This document shows, in pieces, positions 5,980 to 57,985 of a stretch of 64,000 nucleotides of DNA (position 1 is its first letter; each line of letters opens with the position of its first letter). The notes below the pieces were generated by a model, which was not told where the DNA came from, did no database searches, and saw nothing but the letters and a program-made list of their open reading frames with translations. A program made the position numbers and the translations under genes. The DNA lies in NCBI GenBank assembly GCA_019321725.1, contig CM033106.1, positions 21,698,965 through 21,762,964 on the forward strand, written 5' to 3'. This DNA is from Paulownia fortunei. Lineage: Eukaryota; Streptophyta; Magnoliopsida; Lamiales; Paulowniaceae.

Positions 5980-6602
5980 GTATAATCCCCCTTTTTGGCA
6001 AAATGGGCAAATAGGACCCAAAGGAATCTAAAGAGGATGCTGAATTAGTCTCAGAACTTGCAGCAACAACAGGGTCAGGATCAACTCCTTTGCGACGGAT
6101 TCCTTGATTTGCTCATGCATCTCATGTAATTGCTTGCTTCTCAAGATAAACATAATAATCCAGAGATGGAGTAGAAACAAAAGCAATAGAAGGTGATGTT
6201 CCAACATGCCCTAGAACATCAGTTGGGACATCTGCATTAAGATCATTCAAATGTCTTTCAAACTTGATTAGTTTCAAATTGATATTAATAGCTTTCCTAG
6301 GTGCTTGCAAAATCTCCCTTTTGTCCTTCTTAAACCCTTGAGTCATTAAGAAGTTATATATCAAAGAAGGAAAGGGTAGACTGCCATGAGTAGACTTCAC
6401 TTCTTCATGCTTCACTATAATCTTAATAATATGGCTACCAAAATCAAAGGGATGACCAGTACCAACGCGGTAAAAAAATATGGCTTAATCCTTAGTAATG
6501 ACTGTGTGATTTGAAGTAGGGGTCCAGCTGGTAATGACAACCTTATGAAGAATAGCATATTGAGTGTAAGAGAACAGTTTTGGAAATTTTGGTCACTTTT
6601 AT
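5980..6602 (-). pseudogene. copia-1 ORF3, envelope-like protein, C-terminal part
   Basis: The minus-strand frames (6602 down to about 5980) contain 'SYTQYAILHKVVITSW', 'AIFFYRVGTGHPFDFGSHII' and 'LPFPSLIYNFLMTQGF'. This matches the C-terminal half of the 'putative plant transposon protein' domain that is often labelled envelope-like in plant retroelements. The longest open piece is 6415-6122; at least one frameshift lies near 6415 and a stop near 6485. Position just inside the 3' LTR fits the third ORF of SIRE-like elements. The N-terminal half is not adjacent: it is on the plus strand at 9228-10082 and, at its very start, on the minus strand at 20928-21021. That split is explained by an inversion and by insertions. 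The biological role of these proteins is not established. Confidence 0.75.
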
Positions 6603-7650
6603 GAATGCAGCAGTTGGGCACGATTCTCATCTCGCCAACTAAAATTGGGATGATTTTTCCATTGTGGATTGTAAGTTTCAAAATATGGAGAATGGAAAGG
6701 CTTTTTAAATGTGTTCATGACATTTACTTGTGCTGGAATATTTAGGCATTCATTGGTAAAATGTCTAACAAGTTCACAAATGCTACAAACTTCTTCATCT
6801 TGCTCAGATTTGATTTTCTTTAATTTTTTAAGTTCCATGGCCTCAACTTTTCTTGTTAAACCAGCAATCCTAGCATTTATATCATCTTTTTTACTAAGTT
6901 AATATTTTCTTTTATTACTATTAGCAGGATTAGATCTAATAGAACCTTTGGAATAATTAATACTATGCCATGATTTAGAGTTTTCTGCCAAATGGTCTTG
7001 ATATTTTAGGGCTTCATCGGATTCTTTATCAAGAAACTCACCATTACACATTGTTTCAATAAATTATTTTGTTTTAGGAGTTAAATCTTCATAAAAGAAA
7101 CTAATTAAGCGCCATTTTTCAAAACCATGATGTGGGCATGAATTTAACAAATCTTTAATCTTTCCCAATATTGAAAGAAAGCTTCATTAGAATTTTGAGA
7201 AACATTTTGGATATATTTTTACAAAGCATTAGTTTTATGAGTTAGAAATAACTTTTTCAAAAATTCAACTTGGATTTCTTGCCTAGTGCCAACTGACCTA
7301 GGTTTTAAAGAGTTAAGCCAAGTTTTTGCTTTATCTTTCAAAGTAAAAAGAAATAATTTAAGCTTAATAATCTCATTTGTACAAATTTAATCTTCAAAAG
7401 TGACACATACTTCATCAAATTCTTTTAGATGCAAGTAATGGCTTTCAGAGTCTAAACCATGGAGATTAGAAAGTAGAAAGTAAAGGGATCCTGGCTTGAA
7501 TCAAAAGTTATCTGCATCGAGAGAAAAAATAAAACAAGAATGAGAAGAATTTCATGGAGGTTGCAAGTAATAACACATGGTACGCACCTGTTGATTCTCA
7601 TTTTCATCCTGAACACTTTCATTTTCAGCTATGGTAGAAGTGTGTGGAGG
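6603..7650 (-). pseudogene. Athila-1 gag, N-terminal part (inverted segment)
   Basis: The minus strand from about 7650 to 6603 reads as Athila-type gag: 'ESVQDENENQQVRTMCYYL' (from about 7625), a 'GSLYFLLSNLHGLDSESHYL' stretch, then 'FTLKDKAKTWLNSLKPRSVG' (about 7350-7290), the hallmark 'Ser/Thr-Leu-Lys-Asp-Lys-Ala-Lys-x-Trp-Leu' gag motif, then 'EAFFQYWERLK' and, near 6640, 'NPQWKNHPNFSWRDENRA', the Asn/Pro-rich block before the zinc finger. Stops and frameshifts are frequent. It breaks off at about 6600, where copia-1 ORF3 begins on the same strand. The matching gag continuation is on the opposite strand at 12440. Gag forms the particle in which reverse transcription takes place. Confidence 0.85.
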
Positions 7651-7794
7651 TGACTCAAACAAAGTTTCAGAATTATTTCTAACTAAACGATGAGAATTAC
7701 GACGATACCATATGAACATATAACCGTAAAGAAAACAAACACACAACATTTACAAAGAGAAAATATTTACAAACCTTAATACTTACCTTGCCTT

Positions 7795-7817: not shown

Positions 7818-9227
7818 TGGTATAACTTTAAGGTTGGAAACCCAAGTGTAAGTTGTGTCAAGTAATAAATTTCTCGAGAGTCCGAGGTTGATCCACATGA
7901 AAGTTTTTTGAAATTTCTAGGATTATATTCCTTAAAGGATGGGCTTTATGTGGTTTAGAATATAGAGAAAAGTTTATGTTATAACTAAGAAATCAAAATA
8001 ATATAGGTACTGAGGATTAAGGATTCGCTCTTGAGTTTTAGATAGAGAAACGATTATTTATTCTGTTTTCCTCTTTTAAATGACAGAATTGGAATCCATA
8101 CATAATGAAGGTTCCAATGGGAAGATGTTATCAAATAGCTCATACATTAAGCTAATCATGATATTATCTTACTATTTGTAAATTATCTCTTAACACCAAT
8201 ACTTGTTCATGAGATCAAGTGTTTATGCACTCTATTGTCTACAACAAATCAAGATTTCACATTAGCAGTCGGTGGGGTAGAACTGTACAATAAGTTAAAT
8301 GAACCCAAGTATTTGTTGTGTCATTGGAGATATATAAATTAAGAATCACCATAAAACAATAGAGGTTTTAACGCCAACACTTATTTATGGGATCAAGTAT
8401 TTATGCACACCTTTGTCTACAACAAATCAAAATTTCATATTAGCAGTCGATGGGGTAAAACCGTATAATAAGCTAAATGAACTCAAGTATTTGTTGTGAG
8501 GTTGGAGATACATAAATAAAAAATTACCACAAAATAAGGAGAGTTTCAATCAAAAATTAAAACAATAATACAACACACCTGAATATTATGCACCTTTATA
8601 ACTATTCTTCTTCCTCCATCAAGAGGTTCACCCTTTCTCCTCAACTAAATGAAATTTAGAATATAATAAAAGTAGAAAAGACTAAAAATAGAAGAAAAAC
8701 TAAATAATGCAAATCTATTACTACTAGAAAACTTAGCCTAAAGAAGATAAGAAAGTTGATTGGTTGAGCTTCCAATAACAAAGTTGTAGCTCTATATCTT
8801 TGCTTTCAAATGAAGTAAAAATCAAGTCCATAGGGCTTTTGAGCATGGAGTTATGCCTAAAATACAAAAAATACACAAGTTTGGAAATATGCTTATTGAA
8901 TTTAATGCAAGCCCAACAATCACTTGCAAAGTCCAAGTGATTTCTTGCATATATTTTAATCTACACATGATGGACTTAGGCAAAAAAATGGCGATTTTCT
9001 TCTAATTATGATGCTTCTTTGATATAATGAAATATTCTCTCTTAATTTTATCACATAACATGTTGTCTTCTTTAATTTTATTTTGGCTTTTTTTTATCTC
9101 TTTTTGTTCATTGATTCCCTAATATAAAACATTAATAAAATTATAATATTAACAAAAATAAATCAAGAAAAGTATAAAGGATTTGATACAAAAATATATC
9201 AAAATACACACTTATTATCAGGCTGGA
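7818..9227 (-). repeat. Athila-1 5' LTR (inverted; TATA region deleted)
   Basis: On the minus strand it starts 'TGATAATAAGTGTGTATTTT' (9227) and ends '...CCTTAAAGTTATACCA' (7818). It matches the plus-strand LTR at 19202-20927 and the minus-strand LTRs at 48773-50576 and 52425-54227. It is about 1.41 kb, against 1.73 kb for its presumed partner. The missing part lies near 8740-8760 and corresponds to about 19640-20000 in the partner, including the TATAAATAGG box. Two units of the internal minisatellite of about 179 bp are present (8190-8550). Confidence 0.85.
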
Positions 9228-10082: not shown

Positions 10083-12367
10083 TGTAACACCCCTTAACCT
10101 AACTGTAGAGCCTAAACAAGTTGATACAGTTAAGTAAGAAATGTTAATTTTTCATCAATATTAGAGTTATGGTTTTAATAAAAGTTCTCATTTTTAGATA
10201 TAAGAGAAAGAACTTGAATCGTTTTAAACACACCATATACATATATCAAAATTGAGTACATCTGTTTACAAAACCATAACAGAGTGGCTTATTTAAAAAC
10301 AAAACAGAGTTTTCAAAATAAACTACAAAACAGTTCGAGGCATGGCATATGAACAAATCTATGTCCGGCCAATTTAGAGACTCAGTCAACCTCTAAACCT
10401 GTACATTTCCACTTGCATCACATAAATCTAATGAGCTAAAGGCTCAATAAGGTAAAACTGATGCAATAACAAATAACATGTATGCACATCTCATAAATCA
10501 TTAAATACATTATTCTATTAATAACTTTCATTTATAAATAATTCTTTAGGCCCTTGAAGTGTGGTACCTAATTAATAGCGATACACCGTAGTTTTTGGAA
10601 CTATTCATATTGATTGGCCAATAAGAGAACTAATACGGGGTTCCATACTTGGTCTTTCAACCTCAGGTATTATCCGTATTCTATCTCATTTATTGTGGCT
10701 TTCCTATACCGGTTTTCAACCTCAAGTATTTGCCACCATTTATTGGGTCCGCCGGTCCCTCCCACATCCCTTGTCTACCCGACCATCAATCAAGTACCAT
10801 ACTTCCTTTTTAAATACCTCATTATATCCATATTAGTATCATGCTTCACAAACCATAAATTCATCAAACATTACATCATTTCACAAATAATAACAATCAC
10901 ATTAAAATATGAACAACATTATATGATTCTTGTGATACAACAAATAAAAGCTTCAACTTACCTCAAGTCCATTGTGTGCTAAGTGAAAAGGTCAATCTCT
11001 TTGGAAGATAAGACGTGTTAAAGGCCTAACATAATCAAATCATGTACCATTTATTATCCTTTTCATAAATCATTTAGTCTATTCTAATTAAAATCATATA
11101 CACTTTTCAATCTTTTGTAAACAATTCCATATCAATTACATAACCTTAGAAATAATGTATACTCTATATTTACTACTAATTCAAGATATTAAACATTAGG
11201 GCAGCCATTAAATAACTAATAATTCAAACATAATTATTAGGACAACCTACAAAATATGAACACAATCCGAATTAAAATGATGTAAACTTGTTCTAACTTA
11301 AATTGATTCTAACCTTCAATTAAGCAAACTAATTTCTATTGCTCACAATCATTTTTAGGCACCTTCAAACATAATATAAGCATTACAAAATCAATAGAAA
11401 CAAGTAAATTAAATAATTTCACAAGACTATCAATTTTGCTAAAAACTATCTTAACTAGCTTGGTTTTGGCTTCAAGTGTAACTTACTTAAGTTTTCAATC
11501 ATAAAAAAATATACTAAAACATGTAACCATCTAAGATACTACAAATTCATCATAAGAAACATTGAAAAAGAATATATATACCTTGATTAAGTTGGAATTA
11601 AGCTTCAAAATCAACAGTTTTCAAGCTTAAAAGTGTGGAAACTTGTTCTAGTTTGTGTTCTATAGATTCCTATGGATTGAATTCAATTTTTGTGAGTATG
11701 AGAGTGTAGAAATTTGGGAGAAACTTAGGAGAATAAGGGATGGTCGTTTTTGAGGTGCTTCCACAAAAAATATGTCTGAAAATGATTTCTTTGACCTTTC
11801 AAGAGATAAGTGGGGGGCTATGATTGGTTGCATCATGCTTGGTGCCTTCTCATGACAAAAGCCACGTTTATGGGCTAGGAGATGACAAAAATTGATGCTT
11901 TGGTGTTATAATCAAGTGCAATGCGGTTAAAATGATTCCGTACAACCTACTCAACCAACCAATCAAATTGCACCTTTTGCATACTTTTAGTTCTTAGCCA
12001 AATGTAACATATTTCAAGTAAATATTTAGGTAATTAATCACTTTAGCATATAACTAGTATGGATCAATACAAATAATTCATTTCATAGCCATTCAACACA
12101 TCAATCTTTCTTGACCGAGATACCAAGTTTTTCACTGCAAAAAGGCACTTAAGGAATATGTTAAATCAAGAAACAAAAGTTTGATCTCATATTTCATATA
12201 CTAATGCATATTAAAGCATAACTGGAGCATATAGTAACAATTATTCATGTTCGTGCAATAATGCTATTTGTATGCCATAATCCGATAATGATTATTGATT
12301 AGATGCATATTGATGAAAAATACCTATTATTGGCTATGTAGGAGAGAATTGAGAATTGGGCATTACA
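10083..12367 (-). mobile_element. LTR-like insert (solo LTR or non-autonomous element), 2285 bp
   Basis: Bounded by 'TGTAACACCCC' (10083) and '...GGGCATTACA' (12367) and flanked by a perfect CTTTT duplication. Removing it restores the ORF3 reading from '...RNRIYF' into 'TADLVNK'. No gag or pol motif lies inside, so it is a solo LTR or a large non-autonomous element. Orientation is minus by comparison with related inserts at 23314 (minus) and 59564 (plus): all three carry a 'TTACTTACTGAGC...TTAGCTCA'-like block (here reversed, near 10430-10460), though this one is a distinct subfamily. A short plus-strand open frame inside (10614-10982) has no recognisable domain. Confidence 0.8.
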
Positions 12368-12372
12368 CTTTT
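12368..12372. repeat. Target-site duplication CTTTT (right)
   Basis: CTTTT following the CA end of the insert at 12367; it matches 10078-10082. Confidence 0.85.
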
Positions 12373-12439: not shown

Positions 12440-13060
12440 TTTGGATTTGGCTGTATCGCATACAAAATCTATTGAGGAAACTTTGCAAGAATTTATGCAT
12501 GGACAAACAAACATCAATAACCAGACTTCACAAGCCATCAATGAGAACAAAATCACACTTTCAACACTAATAGCTTCTTTGTGTACTCATGAAAAGGTAA
12601 ATTTCTTGCCCAACCTCAACTTGATCCTTCCATGCACTGTCATGCTTCTTCTTAATTCGGTCACAACTCTTCTTAATGAAAAAGTTGTTGACAAGACTGT
12701 TCATCCCAAGGAGAAAGTTTCTAATCCACCTTTAGAAATAAAGAATGGAAATTATCTTGATGATGAAGGTAAGTTTAAGGAAGATGAGTTTGAAAATAAT
12801 GAAAAAGAAAAATACTCATCTTTAGCTCATTTTTCTCAAAGATTGCAAACGAATCAAAAGTTGAACTCAAATGCTTAAATCTTTGGAGTTTTTAAACAAG
12901 TCAAGATTAATATTACATTGTTGGATGAAATCAAGCAAGTTCCACCTTATGCCAAATTTTTGAAAGATTTGTGTACAATCAAAAGAAAACATCATATACT
13001 AAGGAAGACATTTTTAACTAAAAATGTTAGTTCAATCATTCAATAATTCTCTCCACCCAA
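12440..13060 (+). pseudogene. Athila-1 gag C-terminal part and linker
   Basis: Plus-strand frame 12441-12878 reads 'IEETLQEFMHGQTNINNQTS' and 'AINENKITLSTLIASLCTHE', nearly the same as the gag tail of the nested Athila at 51537-51800 ('LQEFMHAQTNINNQTSQAIN'). A Lys/Glu-rich linker follows, and after a stop the 'KFLKDLCTIKRKHH' block (about 12950-12995) that precedes protease in Athila polyproteins. The gag N-terminus is not upstream here; it is at 6603-7650 on the minus strand. Confidence 0.85.
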
Positions 13061-13064
13061 CTAC

Positions 13065-13500
13065 AAAGATCCAGGTTGTCCAACCATTTCATGTACCACA
13101 AGAAACACTATAATAGAGCATTCTTTGCTTGATCTTGGTGTTAGTGTAAATCTTATACCTTTCTCAGTTTATGAACAGTTAGGTTTGGGAGAACTTAAAA
13201 CAACTTTTGGTGTACTCCAACTAGCTGACCGTTCGATTAAAGTTCCAAATGGAGTAGTAGAAGATGTATTGGTACAAATTAATAAGTTTTACTTTTTAGT
13301 CGATTTTATTGTTTTGGACACAGAGCCTGTTGCACATTCACATACACAGATTTCTATCATTTTGGTTCATCATTTTCTTGCAATCTCAAATGCTCTAATT
13401 AATTGTGGAAATGGTATTTTAAAGTTATCTTTTGAAAATATGACTTTGGAACTAAATGCGTTTAATGTTTGTAAGCAATTTGTAGAAGATGTCGAAGTAT
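13065..13500 (+). pseudogene. Athila-1 aspartic protease
   Basis: The open frame 13125-13502 begins at 'MLDLGVSVNLIPFSVYEQLG' and continues 'LQLADRSIKVPNGVVEDVLV'. This is the retropepsin-like protease of Athila elements, whose active-site motif is Asp-Leu-Gly-Ala-Ser. The catalytic Asp is kept and Ala is Val. The upstream residues 'CTTRNTIIEHSL' are out of frame with the ORF start. It would cleave the gag-pol polyprotein, but the surrounding frames are broken. Confidence 0.85.
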
Positions 13501-13539
13501 AGGAACTGGATTCAATTGAATAACTTATTCACGAATATT

Positions 13540-15175
13540 TTACTTTTACTAATTCATTTGATCCTCTGGAAACTATTTTGAAAGTGAAAGTATTTGTAAA
13601 AAAACACACTATGATACTCTCTCTGAATTTTCATAGGTACAAGAAAAATATTTTTGAAAACCAAGGTTTTGAAAAACTTTCATCATCAACAGTACAATCT
13701 ATTCCATCAAGTATTAAAGCTCCCGTGATTGATTTGAAACCTTTGCCATTTGATTTGAAATACTCTTATTTGGGTGAGAATGAGACTTCTCTGGTAATAA
13801 TTTCTTCCAAACTTGATGCATCCCATGAAGGTAAGTTGATCGAAACTCTAAAAATGCATAATAAGATGGACCATTACAAACATTAAAGGTATTAGTCCTT
13901 TCATTTGCACACATAACATCTATCTAGAGGAAAATGCTAAACCTTCTAAAGAAATGCAATGAAGACTAAATCCTAATATGAAAGAAGTAGTGAGAAATGA
14001 AGTCATAAAACTCTTAGATAATGGAATCATTATTCTATTTATTATAATAAATGGGTAAGTCCTACTCAAGTTGTACCAAATAAATTTGGAGTTACTGTAG
14101 TCAAGAATGAAAATGATGAATTAATTCTATCTAGGACTGTTACTGGTTGGCCAATGTGCATTGACTATAGGAAACTCAACTCAGTTACTAGCAAAGATCA
14201 TTTTCTATTACCTTTCATGGATCAATTCTTAGAAAGAGTTGCGGGACATGAATTTTACTGCTTCTCAAATGGATATTATAGGTATAATCAAATTGCAATT
14301 GCACTTGAAGATCAAGAGAAAACTACTTTTACATGTCCTTTTGGTACTTTTGCATATCAAATGATGCCTTTTGAATTATGTAATGCACCAGCTACATTCC
14401 AAAAATGCCTGCTTAGTATTTTTAGTGACATGATAGAAAGTTTTCCTAAAGCCTTCATGGATGATTTTTCGATTTTTGGTAATTCACTTGACATTTGCTT
14501 GTCTAATTTAGAAAAAGTTTTGATCAGATGTGAAGAAAAGAACTTTGTACTCAATTGGGAGAAATTTCATTTCATGATAATAACTAGTATTGTGCTTGGA
14601 TACATTATTTCATCAAAAGGTATTGGAGTAGACAAATTTAAAATCGAGTCAATTGCCAATGTGCCAATACCAAAATCTGTGAAGGAGGTAAGATCATTTT
14701 TAGGACATGCTGATTTTTGTAGAAGATTTATCAAATAATCTAGTATAATATATAAACCTTTGTGTAATCTTCTAAAAAAACACACTACTTTTGAATGAAC
14801 TGAAAATTATGAAAATGCTTTTGTTAAGCTTAAAAATATGCTTATGTATGTTCTAATCATACGGCCTCCAGATTGAACTTTACCTTTTGAAATAATGTGT
14901 GGTGTTAGTGACTATGCTGTTGGAACTGTTTTAGGATAAAGAACATATAAAAAATCATATATCATTTACTATGCAAGTAAAATTTTGAATATTGCTCAAT
15001 TGAATAATTCAACAACTAAAAAAGACTACTTCTTGTAGTTTTTGCATTGGACAAATTTAGATCTTATCTTATTGGCTCACCAGTTGTTGTTTTCAGTGAT
15101 TATACAGCTTTGAAATATCTTTTATCAAAAAAAGATGCCAACTGATTAAGTAGATTCTCTTACTCTAGGAACTCA
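13540..15175 (+). pseudogene. Athila-1 reverse transcriptase and RNase H
   Basis: A linker with 'DLKPLPFDLKYSYLGENE' (13735-13785) precedes the RT. The longest RT frame, 14154-14738, contains 'CIDYRKLNSVTSKDHFLLPF', 'TFTCPFGTFAYQMMPFELCN' and the catalytic 'FMDDFSIFGNS' (about 14456-14488). The other catalytic Asp, normally in 'Leu-Asp-Gly-Tyr-Ser-Gly-Tyr', is replaced (Ser-Asn-Gly-Tyr-Tyr-Arg-Tyr, 14265-14285), so the enzyme would be dead even without the stops. RNase H follows with frameshifts (14740-15130), ending in an 'ELNITIRNK' block near 15165. The end of RNase H and the start of integrase are missing: sequence jumps straight to integrase at about 15190, a deletion of several hundred codons. 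Confidence 0.85.
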
Positions 15176-15184
15176 ACATTACCA

Positions 15185-15870
15185 TTCGAAACAAATGACA
15201 TATGGAATCAGTGATGGGGGAAAATATTTTTTTAACAAAATTTTTGAAACTTTAATGAGGAAATATGGAATCATATATAAAGTTTCAACCCCTTATCACC
15301 CTCAGACAAATGGAGAAGTTGAACTTGCAAATAGGGAGATAAAATGAATTTTGGAAAAGACAGTTAATCCAAATCGTAAAGATTGGTCTCTTAAACTTAC
15401 CGATACACTTTAGGCATATAGAATTACATTTAAAACATCATTAGGCATGTCTACTTACAAGATAGTTCATGGAAGTCATTTACCTGTTGAACTTGAACAT
15501 AAAGCTTATTGGGCAATCAAAATATTTAACTTCAACATTGATGAAGCTTCAAAATTGCGCAAATTGCAAAGTAATGAACTTCAAGAATTTTAAAATGATG
15601 CATATGAGAATTTTAAAATTCATAAAGCAAGAATCAAAGAATTTTATGATAATAAAATTTCAAAAAAAATATTTGAGGTTGGTCAAAAGCTTTTTCTTTA
15701 TAATTTGTGATTGCATTTATTTCTTGGAAAATTAAAATGTAGATGGAGTAGTTCTTTTGTTGTGAAGTAGGTATATCCTTATAGGGTGATTAACATTGAG
15801 AATCCTAGAAATGGTATGTATTCAAAGTAAATGAACAAAGACTTAACCATTTCTAGAGAATCAATTTTCA
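15185..15870 (+). pseudogene. Athila-1 integrase, C-terminal half
   Basis: Plus-strand frame with 'ISDGGKYFFNKIFETLMRKY' (15205-15265), the second Asp block, then 'YHPQTNGEVELANREIK' (15290-15345), which includes the catalytic Glu, 'DWSLKLTDTL' and 'YKIVHGSHLPVELEHKAYWA' (about 15455-15515). The latter is the 'Leu-Val-Tyr-Gly-Lys-x-x-His-Leu-Pro-Val-Glu-Leu-Glu-His-Lys-Ala' block of Athila integrases. In-frame stops are at about 15345, 15410 and 15590. The zinc-binding N-terminus and the first catalytic Asp are deleted. Confidence 0.85.
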
Positions 15871-16402
15871 CAAGAGGATTTTTTTTTCTAACCCTTGTTA
15901 TGATTAGTATGTGTATATATATACATATTTTGTCTAACTTTGTTTGTTTTGTAGGCTTCTTTATTTTCTTTTTTTCTTTTTTTTTCGGTTAAGTGTTAGA
16001 TAGCGATATTTTATGGCTATTGAAGTCGGATTTATTAGTTTTCCAAACAACTAAAATCTCTGTACAAAATTTCTTTAGTTTTTTTCTCATTCTCTTTTCT
16101 TGTTCTTTTCAAAGTGGATGATATTTTTCTAACTCTCAAGAAGCGATTTCATTTTCTTCCTAAAAATGCAATTTTAAAAAAGAATGCTTATACATAAGGG
16201 CATCCTATGGGACATACGATAGATAATTGAAGCAAAAGGTAAGAGTAGCAAGTGAGTTTTCAAATGAGTTTTCAAACTTGTTTACTAGATACATACCTAA
16301 TTTTGGTAAAAATGCATATTCAAAAAAACGAAGGGCAAAAAAATGTAAGTTTATCACAAATGTGTTCGATGGACTTGCAACACAAAGTATCATTTATTAG
16401 GA
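15871..16402. other. Post-integrase spacer of Athila-1
   Basis: No coding motif was seen. A pyrimidine-rich run ending 'TTTGTTTTGTAGGCTTCTTT' (15943-15962) looks like a 3' splice site. It closely resembles the acceptor-like sequence before the Athila-2 envelope-like ORF at 63168. Confidence 0.5.
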
Positions 16403-16610
16403 ATGATTTCTAAAAATCGAGAAGATAAAACTCAATTCATTACTGATAGACTGAGTAAAGAGTCTTTAAATAATAATATATTGACTCTTGAGATGCATTC
16501 ATATAGATTAGTACGTCGTGTAATTCTTGATTTATGGAATCACTTTCGGGATGAATATGAGTATTATAGTCTTGCGAATCTTACATTAAAAGACCCTGTT
16601 TGAAAGTTTA
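16403..16610 (+). CDS. Short unrecognised ORF in Athila-1, upstream of the LOG-like frame
   Basis: A 66-codon plus-strand frame, Met at 16403, stop at 16601-16603. It contains 'RLVRRVILDLWNHFRDEY' and no domain I can name. Similar plus-strand translation continues out of frame to about 16650. It lies between integrase and the LOG-like frame, so it may be the remnant of an element ORF or of a second captured fragment. Whether it is translated is unknown. Confidence 0.3.
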
Positions 16611-16883
16611 TAAGAAAACTAAATGGGAAGCATATCCTCAACCCATAAAGGGTGTTTAAACCATTACTAGACATAAAACCAAAGAAAGTTGTGAGTCGCA
16701 GTCACAACTACATGTACATTCACGTGTAAGTAGCAAATTTTCAAATTTTGTGTCCTTATTTTTAACCTTTCTCATAAAAGAAAAAGATGTGCAATAAATG
16801 CATTCCCTATTCATACCTTAATAAATAGCACCGTACTTAGTCCATTTTAGCATAACTCACTTTCAAAAAGAAAAAGAAAAAAA

Positions 16884-17530
16884 ATGGAAGGGTTTTCCAC
16901 TCACAAGTTCAACTGTATTTGTGTCTTTTGTGGAACTAATCCAGGGAAAAATGGTGAGTATATAAGGGTAGCCAATAACCTTGGTAGAACTTTAGAAGAA
17001 AGAAAAATTCATTTAGTGTATAAGGGAGGCAGTCTAGGGTTAATAGGGAGTGTTGCTACGTCTGCTTAAGTAGAAAGAGTCAAAGTTTTAGGAGTTATCC
17101 CAAAACATTTAATAGTACAGAATATCACAGGTATGACCATTAGAGATGAGCTAAAAGTGTCACATATTCAATACATAATGCCTAACATGTTAAACAATAT
17201 GGATGCATTCATCACTCTACCTGGCGGTTTTCATACACTGGAGAACTTATTCCAAGTTGTCTCTTGGGCATAACTCAATATTCACTAGAATCCTGTATGT
17301 ATTCTTAATGTTAATGATTTCTTTGATGGTTTGCTATCTTTTGTAGATCTTGCTATAGAAAAAGGTTTTATTTCATCGTCTGCGAAATAAATTCTCATTT
17401 CTGATCTAACACCTAACTAATTGATTGATCAACTTCTAGCATATGTGCCAAAACCTGATCTAGTATTGACTCATGTTGATTGGTGCCGTGTGGATTGGTC
17501 CAACAAGGACAATGGTCGAAAATATAATAT
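16884..17530 (+). pseudogene. LOG-like: LOG-like cytokinin riboside 5'-monophosphate phosphoribohydrolase pseudogene captured in Athila-1
   Basis: From Met at 16884 one continuous plus-strand frame matches the full length of plant LOG proteins (about 210 codons). It has 'NCICVFCGTNPGKN' at the start, 'LVYKGGSLGLIGSVATSA' (family: Tyr-Gly-Gly-Gly-Ser-x-Gly-Leu-Met-Gly), 'VLGVIPKHL', 'MPNMLNNMDAFITLPGGFHT' (family motif Pro-Gly-Gly-x-Gly-Thr-x-x-Glu; here Gly is His, Glu kept), 'FFDGLLSFVDLAIEKGFISS' and 'LLAYVPKPD'. LOG enzymes release active cytokinin bases from their nucleotides in the cytosol and nucleus. Five in-frame stops (17067, 17271, 17292, 17388, 17418 approx.) but no frameshift were seen. 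No introns are present, whereas plant LOG genes have several, so this derives from a spliced RNA. It lies about 1 kb past integrase and 1.7 kb before the 3' LTR, on the element's coding strand. No poly(A) tract follows directly. It could instead be an independent retrocopy insertion. Confidence 0.85.
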
Positions 17531-19184
17531 TAATTTGACTCTAAGCCTGTGAAATTTATCCTTAATGACTTCAACTAATAGTGTATATATTATATTGTTT
17601 CAGCTTTATTTTCCAATAAGTCACATTTTAGGTAATATCTTTTAAACTCTACTTTCCTATCTATTTTCCACATTAAGGACAATGTCTCGATTAGGTTGGG
17701 GGAGGGAATAGTTGATATCATATCTTGTGTGTTCAAAGTGTATTTATTTAGTTTTTGTTTTTAAAAAAATGATAAAGCGTGTTTTTTTTTATCCGTTGAA
17801 ACCATAAAAAAGAGTGGCAGAGTAAAGAGCAACTATAACACTCTTGAGATGCATCCCTATTTTTTTGCATAACATGGCAAGTTTGGGAAGTTTTGAATAA
17901 AAGTTTGTAAATTGTTAATTTTTTTTAGTTGTAGATGTTCTTCCAACTTCAATGATTAAAATTAAATACGGATAATGTAGTTTGATTGATGATGAGTGTT
18001 ATTTTAGACTTTGATGTTCTTTGGTTAATATATTTTTGTAATAATTATACTCAAATCTTTTTGCACAAACAACTATGTTATTCGGTGTGGAGACAAGCAT
18101 GTCAAATTAGATAGTTTTTAGGCCCTCGCTTTAATCATCACTTGAATTTTCGACATGAAGGGGTTGAGTGTTAGAACTTTTTTTTTTATTTTTTGAGGTG
18201 AACGACTGATTGAGCACCACTTGAAAAGTGATTAAGGTATTAGGTTTTCTAGCACCGTGGTCAAATCAGCTTGTTCCCCATGTGATGTTTCAAGATAATA
18301 TCCCACATAGTGAGCCACTTTGAGCCTTTCAATAAATAAGTATTTTTTTGTAACCATATCTTCTTACCTAGCCTAAATGCACTATTATCCTACCTTTTGT
18401 TCTAAAAATAATTTGGAATTTAAGATACATTCCATTGACAAAGTGAGCTTGCAAAAGAAATTTAGATTGGAATAGAAGATAAGTGTGGGGCATCTTTTTT
18501 CTAAAAAATAAAAAATAAATTATAAAGTGTTAAAAATATTATGAATTGCAACTAAAAATGGGTGCTGCAAAATCAGTAAGAATGATGAAGAGGGGTCCAA
18601 TTCAATGATAAACTATATGTCTCTAATCTCATGAAATTTTTTAAAACCTTTGTTGTATCCAATCTTTTTATTTTTTAGCCATATCACTTGGCCCCATTAC
18701 AACCTTTATTGCATACATTTTAATTTCATGTGGTGCTTTGGTGTAGGGGAGATTTTTACCAAAGGAAGAGTCTATGATGTTTAACTATTCCATTAGAAAT
18801 TGGGTGTTGATTTTTGTGAGGTTTTATGAGAATTCACTTGTTTGAAGCATGCATGGTTTCGTCACTATTAACATTAACTAATCACACACACACTTGAGTA
18901 TGTTTATTGTGGAAATGTATTGAATTTTTAATGACTAAGGGTTAGATTCAATACTTGTTTGATTTCATTTATATATTAATTTGTTGCTTCCTGAAAATAA
19001 CGGTTGGAAGTTAGTTTTAATAGGTGTTTGTGGGTATCACTACTAGAAACCCTCACGAGACTATAACTCGTCCTCTATAGACCACTTGGGGTTTAAAGTC
19101 TTGTTTTATATGCTAAATACAATCATGATTTCCTACGAAAGTGGATTAGTTTAGGTTTGTTTTAGGCTTGCTCGAGGACAAGGG
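17531..19184 (+). other. Athila-1 3' noncoding region
   Basis: No ORF with known motifs. It has a purine-rich tract 'GGTTGGGGGAGGGAATAG' (17695-17709), resembling the 'GTGTGGGGGAGGG' tract found after pol in Athila elements. It ends with 'GCTCGAGGACAAGGGTTAAG', the usual lead-in to the 3' polypurine tract. Confidence 0.6.
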
Positions 19185-19201
19185 TTAAGTGTGGAGGAAT
19201 T
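19185..19201 (+). other. Polypurine tract of Athila-1
   Basis: 'AAGTGTGGAGGAATT' ends directly before the TG of the LTR at 19202. It is the standard Athila-type primer for plus-strand synthesis. Confidence 0.75.
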
Positions 19202-20927
19202 TGATAAGTGCATATTTTGATATATTTTTTTATCAAATTCTTTATATTTTCCTTGCTTTATCTTATTAATTTTATTAACGTTTTATGTTAGGGAATCAAT
19301 GAACAAAAAGAAATCAAAAATAAAACCGAAGAAGATAACACATTTTGGGAGCAACTTGGGAGATAATATTTCATTGAATCAAAGAAACATCACAATTAGA
19401 AGAAAAGGACTATTTTTTTTGCCTACGTCCATCATGTGTAGATCAAAATATATGCAATAAATCACTTGGACTTTCCAAGTGATTGTTGGACTTGCATTCA
19501 ATTCAAAATAAGCATATTTCCAGAAGTTTTTGTATCTTGGGTATAACTCTATACTCAAAAGCTTATGGACCTGATTCTTACCTCATATGAAAGCTAAGAG
19601 ATAAAACTACAACTTTATTATTGGAAGATTAATCCAATTCACCTTTGATTATAGTAGAAAATTCGTCCAAATGTGTGTATTAGAAAGGATCTATCTATGC
19701 TCACACATATCCTTAAATCAAGCATAACTTTCTCCCTAATAGTTGGAATTAGGTGATTCAAGTTGAAAAATGAAGCTAACAACAAATCTACAATTTCTTG
19801 TTGATCACTTTTTCACATTCAGCTAATTAGATAGAGACAAATGTGTGACACAATTCGGATCTAAAAAGGACATGTTAATTTAGAGCACACTTGAGTTAAT
19901 TTGGAGATGTCAATTTAGGGACTCTTCTGCTATAAATAGGGGCTCTTGGATGACATTCAAGACACATAAAAAACCCATAGATGGGGAAAGAAAGTTTCAT
20001 TGTTGCCTTTCTTTAGGCTAAATTTTCTAGTAGTAATAGAAATGTATTCTCTAGTTTTTCTTCTATTTTTAGTCTTTTATACTTTCATTATGTCTTTCTA
20101 AATTTCATTTAGTTGAGGAGAGAGAGTGAACCTCTTGATAGAGGAAGATGAATGGTTATAAAGGTGCATAATATTCAAGTGTGTTGTATTATTATTTTAA
20201 TTTTTGATTGAAACCCTCCTTATTTTGTGATGATTCTTGATTTATGTATCTCCAATGGAACAACAAATAATTAGGTTTATTTAACTTATTGTATGGTTCT
20301 ACCCTACTGACTGCTAATGTGAAACCTTGATTTGTTGTAGACAAATGTGTGTATAAATACTTGATATCATAAATAAGTGTCGGCGTTAAAACCTTTCTTA
20401 TTTTGTGGTGATTCTTGATTTATGTATCTCCAATGGTACAACAAATACTTAGGTTCATTTAGCTTATTATACTATTCTACTCTACTAACTGCTAATGTGA
20501 AATTTTGATTTATTGTAGATAAAGGTGTACATAAATTCTTGATCCTAATGGCTTTAAGAGATAATTTGCAAACAGTAAGACAATATCATGATTACCTTAA
20601 TGCATGAGCTATTTGATAACATCTTCGCATTGGAACCTTCATTATGTATTGATTCTAATTGTGGCATTTAAAAGAGAAAACAGAATAAATAATCGTTCAT
20701 CTATCCAAAACTCAAGAGCGGATCCCTAATTCTCAGTACTTTTATTACTTTGATTTCTTAGTTATAGCATAAATTTTATTTTATATTCTTAACCACATAA
20801 AGTCCATCATTTAAGAAATATAATTTTGAAAACTTCAAACAACTTTCCTATGGATCGACCTCGGACTCCTGAAAACTTTATTACTTGACATAACTTGGAT
20901 TTGGTTTGTAACCTTAAAGTTGTAGCA
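19202..20927 (+). repeat. Athila-1 3' LTR
   Basis: Begins 'TGATAAGTGCATATTTTGAT' and ends '...CCTTAAAGTTGTAGCA'. It is homologous over its length to the LTRs at 7818-9227, 48773-50576 and 52425-54227. It holds the TATA box at 19931-19939 and two units of the minisatellite of about 179 bp (20215 and 20394). The flanking 'CCTGA' does not match the flank of the presumed 5' LTR, so no duplication confirms the pairing. Confidence 0.85.
19931..19939 (+). promoter_or_regulatory. LTR TATA box
   Basis: 'CTATAAATAGGGGCTC' in the 3' LTR of Athila-1. The same element occurs on the minus strand in the nested Athila LTRs (53441-53451, 49967-49977), which supports it as the core promoter of this LTR family. 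Confidence 0.65.
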
Positions 20928-48772: not shown

Positions 48773-50576
48773 TGCTACAACGTTACGATTGCAAATCCAA
48801 GTGCAGGTTGTGTCAAGTAATAAATTTTTCGAGAGTCCGAGGTCAATCCATAGGGAAGTTGTTTGAAGTTTTTGGGTTTATATTTTTTAAAAGAGGGATA
48901 GAATATGGTTTAGATTATAAAGAAATAGTTATGTTGTAACTAATAATCAAAATAATAAAAGTATTGAGTATTAGAGATCCGCTCTTGAGTTTTGGATAGA
49001 TAAACGATTATTTATTATTATTTTATCTTTTCTAAATGCCACTATTGGAATCCATACATAATAAAGGTTCTAATGGAAATATTTTATCAAATAGCTCATG
49101 CATTAAGGTAATCATGATATTATCTTATTATTTGTAAATTATCTCTTAACACTATACTTGTTTATGGGATCAAATATTTATGCACTCATTTATCTACAAT
49201 ATATTAAGGTTTTACGTTAGCAGTCAGTGTAGTAGAATCATACATCAAGCTAAACGAACTCAAGAATTTGATGTGTCATTGGTGATACAAAAATAAAAAA
49301 TCACTACTAAACAAGAAGGGTTTTAACGCCAACACTTATTTATGGGATTAAATATTTATTCACATATTTGTTTACAACAAATCAATATTTCATGTTAGTA
49401 GTTGGTGTAATAGAACCATATAATAAACTAAATGAACCCACGTATTTGTTATGCCATTAGTGATACAAAAATCAAGAATTACCACTAAGCAATAAAGGTT
49501 TTAATGCTAACACTTATTTATGGGATTAAATATTTATGCACATATTTGTCTACAACAAATCAAGGTTTCACGTTAGTTGACAGTGTAGTAGAATTGTACA
49601 ATAAGCTAAATGAACCCAAGTATTTATTATACCACTGGTGATATATAAATCAAGAATCACCACAAAATCAGGAGAGTTTCAATCAAAAATTAAAACAATA
49701 ATAGAATACACCTGAACATTGTGAATCTTTATAACCGTTCCTCTTTCTCCATCAAGAGGTTCATCATTCTTATTAGTTAAATAAAATTTAGAAAGGCATA
49801 ATAAAAGTAGAACATACTAAAAATAGAAGAAAAACTAGAGAATACATTTCTATTGCTACTTGAAAACTTACATTACTACTAGAAAACTTAGCTTAAAGAA
49901 AGATAACAATAAAACTTTCTTTCCCCCTCTAAGGGTTTTTGTGTATTCTCAATGACATTCAAGAGCTCCTATTTATAGTAGAAGAGTGCCTGAATTGACA
50001 TCTCCACATTCACTCCAAATTTACTTCAAATATGCTCTAAATTCACATGTCCTTTTTAGATCCGATATTTTTGTCACATATGTTTCTCTATAGAATTAGC
50101 TGATTTTAGAAAAGTGATCAACATGAAAGATGTGTATTTATTTGTTAGCTTCATTTTCAACTTGAATCACCTAATTCTAACCATTAGGGAGAAAGTTATG
50201 CTTGATTTAAGAAAATATGTCAGCATAGATAGGTCTTTCCTAATATAATGTTTTGCTATAATCAAGGCTAAATTGGGCTGAGCTTCCAACAACAAAGTTG
50301 TAGTTCTGTCTCTTGATTTCTAATAGAAAAAAAACCTTAGGTCCATAGGGCTTTTAGATATGGAGTTATGCCAAAAATACCAAAACTGCACAAGTCTAGA
50401 AATATGTTTATTTTAAATTTAATGCAAACCCAACAATTACTTGCAAAGTTCAAGTGATTTTTTACATATATTTTGATCTATACTTGATGGACTTAGGCAA
50501 AAATAGTCCTTTTCTTCTAATTATGATGGTTTTTTGATCCAATAAAATATTATCTCCCAACTTACTCACAAAATGT
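48773..50576 (-). repeat. Nested Athila 3' LTR, truncated at its pol-side end
   Basis: Starts 'TGCTACAACGTTACGATTGC' and matches 52425-54227 through to about 50576 ('CTTACTCACAAAATGT'). The last 165 bp or so of the LTR are absent; pol sequence follows directly. It carries three units of the minisatellite of about 178 bp (49147, 49324, 49502). A TATA box on the minus strand is at 49967-49977. Confidence 0.88.
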
Positions 50577-51440
50577 GCGGGGACTAGTGGTATTTCTTTC
50601 TCACCCAAGTAAACATATTTAAGATGGTCTGAGATTGGTTTAATCTCTATTGTAGATGTTTGCACCATAGAAGGTACAAGCCTCTCATTAGATATTGGCA
50701 ATTTAACATAAAATATATCATACCTTGATTTTTTTAGCAATGAATCCAGCCCTATCACATCATTTTCCACACCCCCCAACATTTGCACATCCAACTTCTT
50801 TTCTTTCAAATCCTCCATAAGGAGATGTTTTTGTAAAGTAACTTCCACTCCATCCTTGCCAATGAACTCAAGCATTTGTTATGACTTGGGATCAATAATG
50901 CCAATTGTAGAAAAATATTCACGTCAGTAGGATATCTCATGGCTTAAAAAATATTATATTTTATAACCTCATCATCAAACTCCATAATAAAAATGTCACC
51001 ATGAACATCAATCTTAGCTTGGGATGTCTTCATGAATGATTTTTCCAAAAGAATGCCTAGAGTATTAGGGCATATGTCATCCTCCATCTTAAGAACATAA
51101 AAATTAGTAGGGAAAATAAATTCATTTACCTACATAAGAACATCTTCTACAACCCCTATTGGATATGCATTAGATCTATCAACCAATTGCATGATAACAC
51201 CAGTTTCTTTTAAAGGTCCTAGATTTAGATAAGAATAAATAGATATGGCATAACATTAATTGATGCTCCCAAATCTAACATGCATTTTTCAAATCTGGTC
51301 TTACCAATGGCACAAGGGATAGTAAAAGTGTTTGGATTCTTACACTTTGGAGAGAGTTTTCTTTAAAGAATCATTGAAACATTCTCCCCCACACTTACTT
51401 TTTCAACCCCCCTCAACTTCCATTTGTTAGTGCATAGCTC
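50577..51440 (-). pseudogene. Nested Athila protease and pol start (rest of pol deleted)
   Basis: The minus strand reads 'CMLDLGASINVMPYLF' (about 51285-51240), the Athila protease active site with catalytic Asp. It continues 'VIMQLVDRSNAYPIGVVEDV' and 'KIDVHGDIFIMEFDDEVIKY' (about 51020-50960). Frame 50875-50462 then has 'EIKPISDHLKYVYLGEKEIP', the linker before RT. The coding sequence ends abruptly at 50577 against LTR sequence. All of RT, RNase H and integrase are missing, so the element is internally deleted. Confidence 0.87.
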
Positions 51441-52424: not shown

Positions 52425-54227
52425 TGTTACAACTTTAAGATTGCAAACCCAAGTGCAAGTTGAGTCAAATAATAAATTTTTTGGAAGTCCGATGTCGAAT
52501 TACAGAGAAGTTGTTTGAAGTTTTTGGGTTTATATTTCTTAAAAGATGGGCTAAATATGGTTTAGATTATAAGAAAAATTTATGTTTTAACTAAGAAATC
52601 AACGTAATAAAAGTAGTGAGGATTAGGGATCTACTCTTAAGTTTTGGATAGAGGACCAATTATTTATTAATTTTTTTACCTCTTTTAAATACCACTATTG
52701 GAATCCATACACAATGAAGGTTTTAATGGAAAGATGTTATCAAATAGTTCATGCACTAGGGTAATCATGATATTGACTTATTGTTTGCAAATTATCTCTT
52801 AACACCAATACTTATTTATGGGATCAAGTATTTATGCACATCTTTGACTATAACAAATCAAGGTTTCACGTTAGCAGTCATTGTAGTAGAACCATACATC
52901 AAGCTAAATGAACCTAAGTATTTATTGTACTATTGGTGATACAAAAATCAAGAATCGCCACTAAACAAGAAGATTTTAACGCCAATACTTATTTGTTGGA
53001 TTAAGTATTTATGCACCTTTGTATATAATAAATCAAGGTTTCACATTAATTGTCGGTGTAGTAGAATTGTACAATAACCTAAATGAACCCAAGTATTTGT
53101 TATGTCATTGGTGATACATAAATCAATAATCAATACAAAATAAGGAGGGTTATAATCAAAAATTAAAATAATAATATAATACATCTGAATGTTATACACC
53201 TTTATAATTATTCATCTTCTTCCATCAAGAGGTTCATCATTTTTCGTCAACTAAATAAAATTTAGAAAGATATAATGAAAGTAGAAAAGACTAAAAAGAG
53301 AATAAAAACTAGAGAATGTATTTCTAATACTATTTGAAAACTTGCATTATTACTAGAAAACTTATCCTAGAGATAGACAATAATAAAACTTTATTTTTCT
53401 CTCTAAAGATTTTTTTGTGTTTTCAATGATATGTAAAAACTCCTATTTATAGCAAAAGGGTACCTAAATTAGCATCTCCAAATTCACTCCAAATGCACTC
53501 CAAATTTACTTCAAATATGCTCTAACTTTACATATCATTTTTAGATCCGACATTTGTCATATTTTTTCTCCATGAAATTAACTGATTTTGGAAAAGTGAT
53601 CAACATGAAACCTATGTATTTATCTATTAGCTTTATTTTTCAACTTAAATCACCTAATTCCAACAACTATAGAAAATGTTATGCTTTATTTAAGGAATTG
53701 TATTAGCATAGATAGATCATTTCCAATATACACACTTGGATAAATTTTCTACTATAATTGAGGTTGAATTAGTTTGAGCTTCCAATAGAAAAGTTGTAGT
53801 TCTATCTCTTATCTTTCAAATGATGTAAGATTCAGGTCTAAAGGGCTTTTTAACATAAAGTTATGCCCAAAATATGAAAACTTCACAAGTTTAGAAACAT
53901 GCTTATTTTGAATTTATTGCAAGCCCAACAATCACTTGCAAAGTCCAAGTGATTTCTTACATATAGTTTGATCTACCCATGATGGACTTAGGCAAAAATA
54001 GCCATTTTCTTCTAATTGTGATGCATATTTGATCCTATGAAATACTATCTCCCAACTTGCTCATGAAATGTCTTGTCTCTTTTGGTTTCATTTTAGTCCT
54101 TTTTTATCTCTTTTTGTTCATTGATTTGCTAATACAAAATATTAATAAAACTGTAATATTAACAAGAATAGCGCAATGAAAGTATAAAGGATTTGATACA
54201 AAAATATTTTAAATTATGCACTTATCA
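52425..54227 (-). repeat. Nested Athila 5' LTR
   Basis: On the minus strand it starts 'TGATAAGTGCATAATTTAAA' (54227) and ends '...CTTAAAGTTGTAACA' (52425). Length is 1803 bp. Two minisatellite units (52799, 52978). TATA box on the minus strand at 53441-53451. Confidence 0.9.
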
Positions 54228-54232
54228 ATCAA
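54228..54232. repeat. Target-site duplication ATCAA (right)
   Basis: Right-hand copy; see 48768-48772. Confidence 0.75.
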
Positions 54233-55660
54233 GATGAATAGGGTTTCAGATGAGGCTATTAGACTCTGTTTATTCTCATTCTCTCTAAGAGACAAGGCAA
54301 GATTGTGGCTATAATCTTTTGCGCCAGGAAGCATCGCTAACTGGAATAATTTGACTTAGAAATTCCTTGCTAAGTTATTCCCACCTAGCAAGACTCTTCA
54401 ACTAAAAAGTGAGATCACCCAATTCAAACAAATGGATTTTGAACCATTATATGAGGCATGGGAGCGATTCAAGGATCTTTTTGAGAAGATGCGCAACACG
54501 GTTATGAGGATTAACAATATATCTACAATGGAATGGTCAGACAAGGATAATCATAGATGCTACAGCTAGGGGTACTTTGATGTCTAAAATAGTAAATGAT
54601 GTATATATATACTGCTTGAAGAAATCGCAACCAATAGTTATCAGTGGCCTTTCGAAAGATCATCGTCAAGTAGGTAGCTTAGGTTCTTAAGCTAGATCCT
54701 TTGACTGCTTTTGTTGCACAAGTCTCTGCTCTATCTAATCAATTTGCTCATTGACCACCAATGGACCACTTCAAGCAATGGATACTACTGCACCTCCTTC
54801 TTTCAATCCACAAGAGTCTAATAAACAAGTAAACATTGTGAATAACAAGAACTTCAATTATAGAGACAATCAACTGCCAACTCACTGCCATCCGGGGATT
54901 CCTGACCATGAGAACTTGTCTTCTAGAAATAATAGGAATGTGCTCCAATCTCCTCTGGGCTACAACAATCCATCCAACTCTAATAACCAATGAGGTAAAA
55001 AAAATCCTTCAGAGGATATGTTTAGCACTTTCATTAGTGAGATAAGAGCTAGATTTAATCGTGATGAGCAACATTGAGAATCAGATGGATATTTAGCATT
55101 GAGTGTAGGAGCTTAAATGACTAGTGTAGGGCACAAATCAAGTCTTTGGAGATCCAAATCGAGTAATTGGCTATAATACCAAATGACCAACAACAAAAAG
55201 AATTTTTTTTACGTGATACCAAGGTCAACCCTAGAGAGAATTGCAAGGCAATACAACTTAGGAGTGGAGCTGAGTACAAAGGTCCTGAGTTGAAACAGTC
55301 TACTACCGATAGGCCTCACACTCCCTTACCCATTTAAAGTCCAGAGATGGGACCATCAAAAAAAGAGGAGATTTAGCATGATGAGCAAACAAGGGCTAAG
55401 AAGCCAAAATCTATTTCTAACTTTGAAACTCATTCTAATGTTAATGTTCCCCTCTCTTTCCTCAAAAATTTCAAAAAAAAAAAGTTAGATGCTAAATTTG
55501 GTAATTTTTTAGAATTTTTTTAAAAAATTCACATTAATATCCATTCTGCATATGCATTGGAGCAAATGCTAAATTACATAAAACTCATGAAAAATGTGTG
55601 TCAAGAAAGAGAAAATTGGTGGACTTTGAAATAGTCAAACTTACAGAGGAGTGTAGTGCT
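54233..55660 (+). pseudogene. Athila-2 gag, second part
   Basis: Resumes as 'KMNRVSDEAIRLCLFSFSLR' then 'DKARLWL' (54290-54310), 'KFLAKLFPPSKTLQLKSEIT' (about 54360-54418) and 'EAWERFKDLFEKMR'. The Asn/Pro-rich block is in frame 54751-54993 ('FNYRDNQLPTHCHPG', 'SSRNNRNVLQSPLGYNNPSN'). The 3' part (55330-55660) has the Lys-rich linker before protease. Multiple stops, for example near 54317, 54355 and 54690. Confidence 0.85.
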
Positions 55661-56100
55661 ATTATTCAGAAAAAGCTACATTAAAAATTAAAAGATCCAT
55701 GGAGTTTTACTATTCTTTGCACAATAGGCAGTTCTTTTTTTGATAAAGCACTTTGTGATCTTGGAGGAAGCATTAATTTGATGCTACTTTTGTTTTTAGA
55801 AAATTAGGTCTAGGAGAAGTAAAACCATCCACCATCACCTTGTAGCTTGCAGATAGGTCACTTACCTATCCCAAGAAGAGCGATTGAAGATGTCTTGGTG
55901 AAGGTGGATAAGTTATTTTTCGATAGAATTTGTGGTGCTTGACATGGAAGAAGATCAAGAGACTCATCTCATTCTTGGACAACCATTCCTTGCCACCGAT
56001 AGAGCGTTGATAAATGTGCAATGTGGGGAGTTGACTTTGAGAGTCAATGAAGGTCAAGGGTTGTTCAACATCTACCGAGCTATGCATTTTTAGGAAGAGC
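55661..56100 (+). pseudogene. Athila-2 protease
   Basis: '[20 protein letters not shown]' (about 55695-55752) leads to '[10 protein letters not shown]' (55752-55780), the Athila protease motif with the catalytic Asp kept and Ala replaced by Gly. 'RAIEDVLVKVDKLFF' (55875-55920) and 'TIPCHR' fragments follow in shifted frames. Frameshifts near 55780, 55850 and 55920 break it. Confidence 0.82.
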
Positions 56101-57378: not shown

Positions 57379-57985
57379 ACCTCTATGTAACTTTTTGGAA
57401 ACAGATATGCCTTATAATTTCTTATTTACAGACTTTTGAGCATATAAAGAAGGCACTCATATCAGCCCCTATCATGGTGGTACCCAACTAGACTCAACTA
57501 TTTAAGCTCATGTGTGATGCCAGTGACTGGGCAGTAGGAGCGGTGTTAGGCCAAAAATGGGAAAAGATCTATACATTACGTAAGTCGGACCTTGGACAGT
57601 GTACAATAAAATTACATGACAATCGAGAAAGAGATCGATTAGGTACCTATTTGCTATGAAGGATGCTAAGCCATGGTTGATTCGTTGGATTTTGTTGCTT
57701 CAAGAGTTTGATCTTGAGAGTCATGACAAGAAGGGTAGTGAGAATGTGTTAGCAGACCACCTATCCCATTTGGAGCAAGAGAATGAGGTAGTAGGAGCAT
57801 CCATTTAGAAGTCATTTCTAGATGAACTCATTTTAGCAGTTGGGGCGAGGCTTCGATGGTATGCATATTTTCTCAATTATCTTGTTGGTGGAGTCCTTCC
57901 TCCAGATTTGTCATCTAATCAAAGAAAAAAAAATTGCATGATGTTAAGTTCTATTTGTGGAATGACCTTTTGCTTTTTTTAAGAA
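57379..57985 (+). pseudogene. Athila-2 RNase H
   Basis: Plus-strand pieces: 'HIKKALISAPIMVVPN' (about 57440-57487), 'FKLMCDASDWAVGAVLGQKW' (57502-57560), '[20 protein letters not shown]' (about 57645-57710) and '[20 protein letters not shown]' (57711-57770, with small gaps). 'Asp-Ala-Ser-Asp' is the RNase H active-site block. Frameshifts near 57560 and 57655. Confidence 0.85.

Follow-up and report, generated by a model that had tools for sequence, protein, structure and literature searches.

A 64-kb stretch of the Paulownia fortunei (Lamiales) genome, called here the window (the whole stretch of DNA that was analysed), contains a decayed copy of an Athila-type long terminal repeat (LTR) retrotransposon. 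The family of this element carries two accessory genes, one encoding a cysteine-rich protein (CRP) and, following it, an intronless gene of the LOG family. LOG is a standing part of this high-copy family and occupies a fixed position in it; it is a real retrotransposon accessory gene, seen in the window as a dead copy. The reading considered probable is that LOG goes back to one old capture, has been retained by selection and, together with CRP, takes part in the handling of the host by the element.

The LOG frame of the window lies at 16884-17552 (+), where translation gives a complete LOG protein in a single frame and without splicing, apart from five internal stop codons ahead of the terminal stop (the open pieces reach at most 61 aa) and a 15-nt insertion that is absent from an intact copy. 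A tblastn search with proteins of relatives placed it at 16884-17531 (+). When two of its open pieces were scanned against Pfam profiles, 17073-17270 matched PF03641 (E 1.9e-9) and 16884-17069 gave no match. An intact relative is 73% identical to the window LOG over residues 1-211 of 217 (E 4e-97), a sequence likeness that exceeds chance by far. The first-pass annotation had described a near full-length intronless LOG frame located between integrase and the 3' LTR on the coding strand. The length, the single frame and the location (integrase remnants at 15255-15815, 3' LTR at 19202-20927) agree with this description, and all of the motifs that it quoted are present in 16884-17552; what does not hold is an open frame, given the five internal stops. 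No further LOG frame was detected in the window with LOG proteins as tblastn queries. An unplaced contig (L001, G000:C811:20993-24661) is 100% identical to the window across 3.7 kb, which probably reflects redundancy in the assembly.

The position of LOG within the family was established by searching the 509-Mb assembly of P. fortunei. A LOG DNA query gave 2309 first-look candidates, the best 40 of which were scored, and PF03641 gave about 115 stop-free domains (manual count) among the best 150 of 2486 candidates, most of these 150 belonging to the same Athila-type family. Since lists scored by LOG favour good LOGs, the flanks were also used as queries. With the 1.6-kb stretch located 3' of LOG (best 40 of 2923 candidates), 23 of the 40 places had a listed LOG match at the right place and LOG was found in 16 of the other 17, i.e. 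in 39/40. With a 5' query running from the start of the CRP gene through the first 120 bases of LOG (best 40 of 2386 candidates), all 40 places extend to the end of the query, within two bases, and so into LOG; this second list leans slightly to LOG carriers because its query included LOG bases. Redundant contigs were left unmerged in the PF03641 and 3' flank lists (C600 counted twice); in the LOG DNA list, C811 is identical to the window. Among the 16 LOGs read at flank-chosen places (about 320 bases each), none has an insertion, two are free of indels and 14 have one to three short deletions, which may reflect real decay or assembly errors. Other copies of the family therefore carry LOG at the same place, many of them with an unbroken frame. 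The first-pass annotation had set against its own proposal a lone processed pseudogene that landed in the window element. The window LOG is indeed intronless and broken, and an A-rich stretch adjoins it, but at its 5' end; the unique insertion that such a pseudogene implies is refuted by the flank counts, which leave this explanation with practically no chance of being correct.

LOG-carrying copies inserted recently in Paulownia. Two of them, on C20 and C12, were read in pieces for LTRs and target duplications. Their LTRs measure 1616 bp (manual count), start with TGATAAGTGC and end with TTGTAGCA. Identity within the LTR pairs is 98.6% and 98.7%, and a divergence of 1.3-1.4% corresponds to roughly 0.5-1 million years at plant substitution rates. 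Each copy has a perfect target duplication (GAGGT and GTATA). Taken together, the two copies display the marks of LTR retrotransposons, i.e. an LTR pair, TG...CA ends, 5-bp target-site duplications (TSDs) and a primer-binding site, whose TGGCGCCGTTGCCGGGGA we take to pair with tRNA-Asp. The C20 copy encodes gag (PF03732), protease, reverse transcriptase (RT), RNase H and pieces of integrase, with a broken CRP; its sequence is broken up by a gap in the assembly and by a repeat (at L063:6103-7004, a gap of 100 N followed by a second, poorer RT-RNase H run, which suggests faulty assembly). In the C12 copy, the sequence from the primer site up to RT is absent. The idea that LOG-carrying elements move without gag and RT was dropped: because the primer site is gone as well, this stretch probably disappeared once the copy had inserted or when the genome was assembled.

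The second accessory gene was absent from the first-pass annotation and was found by tblastn. In family copies, CRP is a frame of 185 residues between integrase and LOG; in the window it is a remnant at 16114-16645 (+), placed in two frames with the L061 protein, with a frameshift and stops, and copy L002 has stops and indels in the same stretch. Paulownia CRP matches PF01623, the Carlavirus nucleic-acid-binding protein, with 25.3-25.4 bits (cut-off 20.9). Among 24 aligned members, 19 match PF05515 (best 2.9e-8) and 18 match PF01623 (E ≤0.001), one member, P0189, matching neither. CRP has 434 relatives, of which 120 were listed; these share 56-95% identity with the query, and among them are named proteins from Xanthoceras, Populus, Acer, Rhamnella and Orobanche. 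PF01623 was found at 23 places among the best 150 of 485 candidates in the Paulownia genome and at no place in 14 control genomes. Alignment searches of viral contigs confirmed no relative among 145 pattern stretches for CRP and none among 33 for LOG. The structure model of CRP was poor, and no fold search was based on it. Just upstream of CRP, TATAAAA is present in 20 of 22 distinct young copies (L061:8487-8606) and could be an internal promoter; the window copy has TATTGAA at this site. The CRP-LOG interval in Paulownia contains two AATAAA signals plus an A-rich stretch, the latter located ahead of LOG in young copies as well as in old ones. A capture of CRP as polyadenylated RNA is not claimed, as the A-rich stretch may equally be a translation leader and as the relative P0062 has no Lys run before its LOG part.

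Relatives of both LOG and CRP exist in Orobanche, Populus and Xanthoceras, and full-length LOG relatives from other plants are 58-69% identical, with most active-site columns invariant among 16 aligned LOGs. Of 120 listed LOG relatives, three Xanthoceras proteins (P0013, P0014 and P0060) were treated apart, leaving 117. A first tree combined 25 presumed transposon LOGs with the three Xanthoceras proteins, one bacterial LOG and 15 host LOGs of LOG3 and LOG8 type (14, one gymnosperm included, drawn from 120 host proteins, plus LOG8). All 25 transposon LOGs form one group (100/98), within which Paulownia, Rehmannia and Orobanche fall together (99/99). In a second tree, which combined 17 of the 117 presumed transposon LOGs with LOG8, 11 of the 120 host proteins and 15 of 80 bacterial LOGs, host plant and transposon LOGs stand on one side against the bacterial ones (100/98). 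Support for placing the Xanthoceras proteins on the transposon side is 99/96 in the second tree and only 86/56 in the first. The phylogeny suggested in the first-pass annotation gives one clade shared with proteins of other eudicots, outside ordinary plant LOGs and on the plant side of the tree. Orobanche contributes one LOG cluster with 328 member sequences.

A bacterial rather than plant origin of LOG would agree with its lack of introns and with the approximately unbiased (AU) test, in which a grouping of transposon with bacterial LOGs has p 0.07, but the best tree joins transposon and host plant LOGs against the 15 bacterial ones, and this origin appears highly unlikely. Identity alone does not decide between the two donors, since Paulownia LOG is 49% identical to Arabidopsis LOG3 and 46% to LOG8, as compared with 45% to the LOG of P. 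aeruginosa and 37-50% to 80 bacterial loci. When the Paulownia genome was searched with a 35-residue LOG3 query, 15 of the 150 scored places were 69-88% identical and stop at residue 25-30 (manual count), and the other 135 were 48-58% identical and run through residue 35. This suggests that host LOG genes have an intron at residue 25-30 of the query that element LOG lacks. Because LOG recurs at the same place, reads past the ends of host-like exons and falls on the plant side of the LOG tree, it is regarded as cargo of the element and not as a lone processed pseudogene. Outside Paulownia, there are hints of linkage between the two accessory genes: LOG P0114 and CRP P0127 share their longest contig (8723 bases), and LOG P0013 and CRP P0132 of Xanthoceras share a contig (21,981,555). 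In addition, one Xanthoceras gene model includes a gag-pol spacer resembling that of the Paulownia element, and a Rhamnella CRP model shows, by eye, integrase-like sequence at its start.

The chief argument for constraint on LOG is the existence of full-length frames that are about 60% identical across plant orders. Within the Paulownia genome, selection on LOG is weakly visible, as a trend. Two subfamilies of 32 and 21 distinct copies were compared (76 loci; 68 copies merged to 53; loci without a near-complete LOG match excluded). Differences fixed between them are synonymous at 12 codons and nonsynonymous at 18; the changes private to the old group comprise 57 synonymous, 169 nonsynonymous and nine stop codons (178 nonsynonymous including stops). 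This weak signal, the broken LOGs of old copies and the deletions in flank-chosen copies are what would be expected if LOG were a passenger, hitch-hiking in a successful element that does not need it. A free passenger should have lost its frame over such a time, and the full-length relatives, their mostly invariant active-site columns and their grouping in one clade make this explanation unlikely.

Several observations nevertheless weigh against the reading of LOG and CRP as selected, host-handling cargo. The selection test proposed in the first-pass annotation yields the trend described above and no proof, since fixed and private changes differ with a Fisher p of 0.077 (p 0.12 by codon position, 11/5/14), and a stop is the commonest state at two LOG codons in the old group. 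Of 28 distinct full-length young copies, 9 have a CRP free of gaps, insertions and stops, as against none of 12 old copies (manual count); the TATAAAA motif upstream of CRP occurs in 1 of 15 distinct old copies, and the putative kinship of CRP to viruses rests on Pfam scores for part of the protein. At the flank-chosen places, 17 of 40 have no LOG in the best-scoring lists and just 2 of the 16 LOGs read are free of deletions. The AU test leaves the grouping of transposon and bacterial LOGs unrejected. The location of the proteins outside Paulownia in retroelements is indicated for single cases and presumed for most species. Finally, 9 of the 117 LOGs lack the catalytic Arg, Lys100 is kept in one of the 117 (Met in 58, Ile in 49, Leu in 8, Thr in 1), and Glu125 is replaced by Gln in 86 and by His in 24, Glu not being among the six commonest states. 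Of these observations, the counts for CRP and for LOG at flank-chosen places, along with the AU test, slightly reduce the confidence placed in the reading.

These last replacements bear on what LOG does. The PF03641 match, the fold and the PGGxGTxxE motif place the protein in the LOG fold family, its structure model fits type-I LOGs, and the catalytic residues are mostly kept (Arg in 108/117, Glu in 113/117). The adenine and prenyl pocket of cytokinin-activating LOGs (Lys100, Glu125 and Trp129) is altered: Lys100 and Glu125, replaced almost throughout the clade, are both constant in 120/120 host and 80/80 bacterial LOGs. Trp129 is kept in 100/117, with Arg in 15/117; the Orobanche LOGs P0047, P0049 and P0085 have Arg at this position. 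In the LOG of C. glutamicum, Lys100 is listed among the adenine-binding residues, and alanine at AMP-binding or catalytic residues, Ser19 excepted, nearly abolished activity, according to the mutant data of PMC4979012. Cytokinin activation by element LOG is therefore uncertain. The suggestion made in the first-pass annotation that the element was a vehicle for a hormone-activation gene holds as regards the LOG cargo, the activation role being conjectural. It is quite possible, if somewhat less than probable, that element LOG does not activate cytokinins at all and was turned to another nucleotide (for example one that signals in immunity, or the nucleotide pool on which reverse transcription draws) or into a binding protein. 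The pocket replacements and the near-inactive C. glutamicum mutants point in this direction; against it stand the largely conserved catalytic Arg, Glu and PGGxGT motif, the fit to type-I LOGs and the three Xanthoceras proteins, counted apart, which lie on the same side of the tree and keep the catalytic Arg and Glu as well as Lys100 and Glu125.

Taken together, the reading of LOG and CRP as selected cargo can be formulated as follows. A spliced plant LOG transcript would have been picked up once by the element, long ago, during reverse transcription, and the protein would have been kept by selection through much of eudicot history. CRP and LOG may both be expressed from a downstream RNA, the TATAAAA box upstream of CRP in young copies being a candidate start. 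In the nucleus, CRP might blunt silencing or alter transcription, as do viral CRPs, which are described in the consulted part of PMC12172455 as silencing suppressors, that of chrysanthemum virus B being a transcription factor that causes hyperplasia. LOG would act as a nucleotide phosphoribohydrolase with an altered base pocket and shift the level of a cytokinin or related nucleotide, so that the element would be expressed and passed on in dividing cells. A bolder version, in which a eudicot-wide Athila lineage, perhaps older than the split between rosids and asterids, bears a host-handling kit of a CRP that blunts silencing or works as a transcription factor and a LOG with its pocket rebuilt for a nucleotide other than the usual cytokinin precursor, and in which the CRP gene was exchanged between retrotransposons and plant RNA viruses, is speculative and rather doubtful.

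The probable attribution to Athila-type Ty3/gypsy elements fits the absence of a second RNase H. In copy L063, PF13650, PF00078, PF17917 and PF00665 follow each other in the order protease-RT-RNase H-integrase. No second, archaeal-type RNase H (aRH), which distinguishes Tat from Athila in the survey passages of PMC6317226, was found in the pieces that were profile-scanned; by eye, the end of RNase H in L063 is directly joined to the N-terminal stretch of integrase (a stretch not profile-scanned), with no room between them. The C-terminal piece of integrase (L061:7739-8401) matches no Pfam family at E 0.001 and no chromodomain. PF03078, the Athila ORF-1 domain reported there in 16% of Athila elements, is not among the Pfam families found in nine pieces scanned. 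The Athila label of the first-pass annotation is consistent with the aRH criterion and the domain order.

In the window, all identified parts of the element are on the + strand. A gag tail (12460-12567), pol remnants covering protease, RT (PF00078 within 14154-14735) and RNase H (12921-15139) and the partial integrase were located by tblastn with proteins of relatives, and by Pfam for pol. Beyond CRP and LOG, a purine-rich stretch at 19170-19201, probably the polypurine tract, directly precedes the 3' LTR (TGATAAGTGC ... TTGTAGCA, ends set by eye), which has an internal duplication at 20208-20543, a 158-nt direct repeat whose copies are 86% alike and spaced by 178 bp. The element is incomplete, with gag reduced to its tail, integrase partly missing and no 5' LTR found on the + strand. 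Three more LTR stretches of the same family occur on the minus strand (7818-9218, 48773-50577 and 52425-54228), together with gag of a minus-strand copy at 6602-7719 (tblastn). Another Athila-like pol and integrase at 55640-59076 (+), 29-67% identical in pieces, belongs to a different element without LOG. Relatives of 11169-12370 directly adjoin the CRP-LOG part in LOG copies L011 and L018, which may point to a subfamily born of recombination or to a neighbouring element that the copies share.

LOG in plant retrotransposons was already known. The first-pass annotation knew of no description of such cargo, but PMC9289625, citing Steinbauerova 2011, reports that consensus sequences of LTR retrotransposons from Citrus sinensis and C. 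clementina contain a YgdH (LOG) domain, as do those from Populus trichocarpa when the filter is relaxed. As in Paulownia, a LOG-family domain lies there within plant Gypsy-type elements, in several consensuses; the description takes up two sentences of a domain survey. Paulownia adds a Lamiales host, the type of the element, the position of LOG, TSDs, unbroken copies, CRP, the single clade and the changed pocket. The same source describes Phalaenopsis Gypsy elements that likewise recruited an enzyme domain as accessory gene, in this case a different one, an AlkB demethylase whose activity was measured. Like the Athila elements of PMC6317226, as far as its consulted part describes them, the Paulownia element has the non-chromovirus order, no second RNase H and extra sense frames between pol and the 3' LTR, but these frames encode LOG and CRP, neither env-like proteins nor Athila ORF-1. 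Because that survey counted extra frames of at least 250 codons, both genes would escape it. Element LOG shares with Arabidopsis LOG3 and LOG8 the fold, the PGGxGTLEE motif and the catalytic Arg and Glu, and differs in having no seen intron, a separate clade and replaced Lys100 and Glu125. Element CRP resembles the carlavirus, allexivirus and mandarivirus CRPs covered in PMC12172455 in matching PF01623/PF05515 along a basic stretch that includes cysteines; it differs in being borne by a retrotransposon and in that its C-terminal half, which the match does not reach, is conserved. It measures 182-185 aa. The terms looked up in PMC7264820, PMC11728184 and PMC12596083 returned no LOG or CRP cargo, and no description of the LOG-CRP pair or of the pocket change was found in the open-licence literature searched, subscription papers lying outside its scope. 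Relative to this literature, the new points are the lineage, the pairing of LOG with CRP, the grouping in a single clade and the pocket change.

Extra genes are common in plant retrotransposons, and most of those treated in the consulted parts of PMC6317226 and PMC7264820 have no known homologue or function. What a retrotransposon gains from its cargo is testable in the Paulownia family, because LOG and CRP both have homologues with studied biology. The finding may also matter for annotation. Public records name some of the LOG relatives cytokinin riboside 5'-monophosphate phosphoribohydrolase, and since about 115 of the best 150 LOG domains are unbroken and mostly borne by elements, and relatives already bear enzyme names, the number of LOG genes counted in such genomes may be too high.
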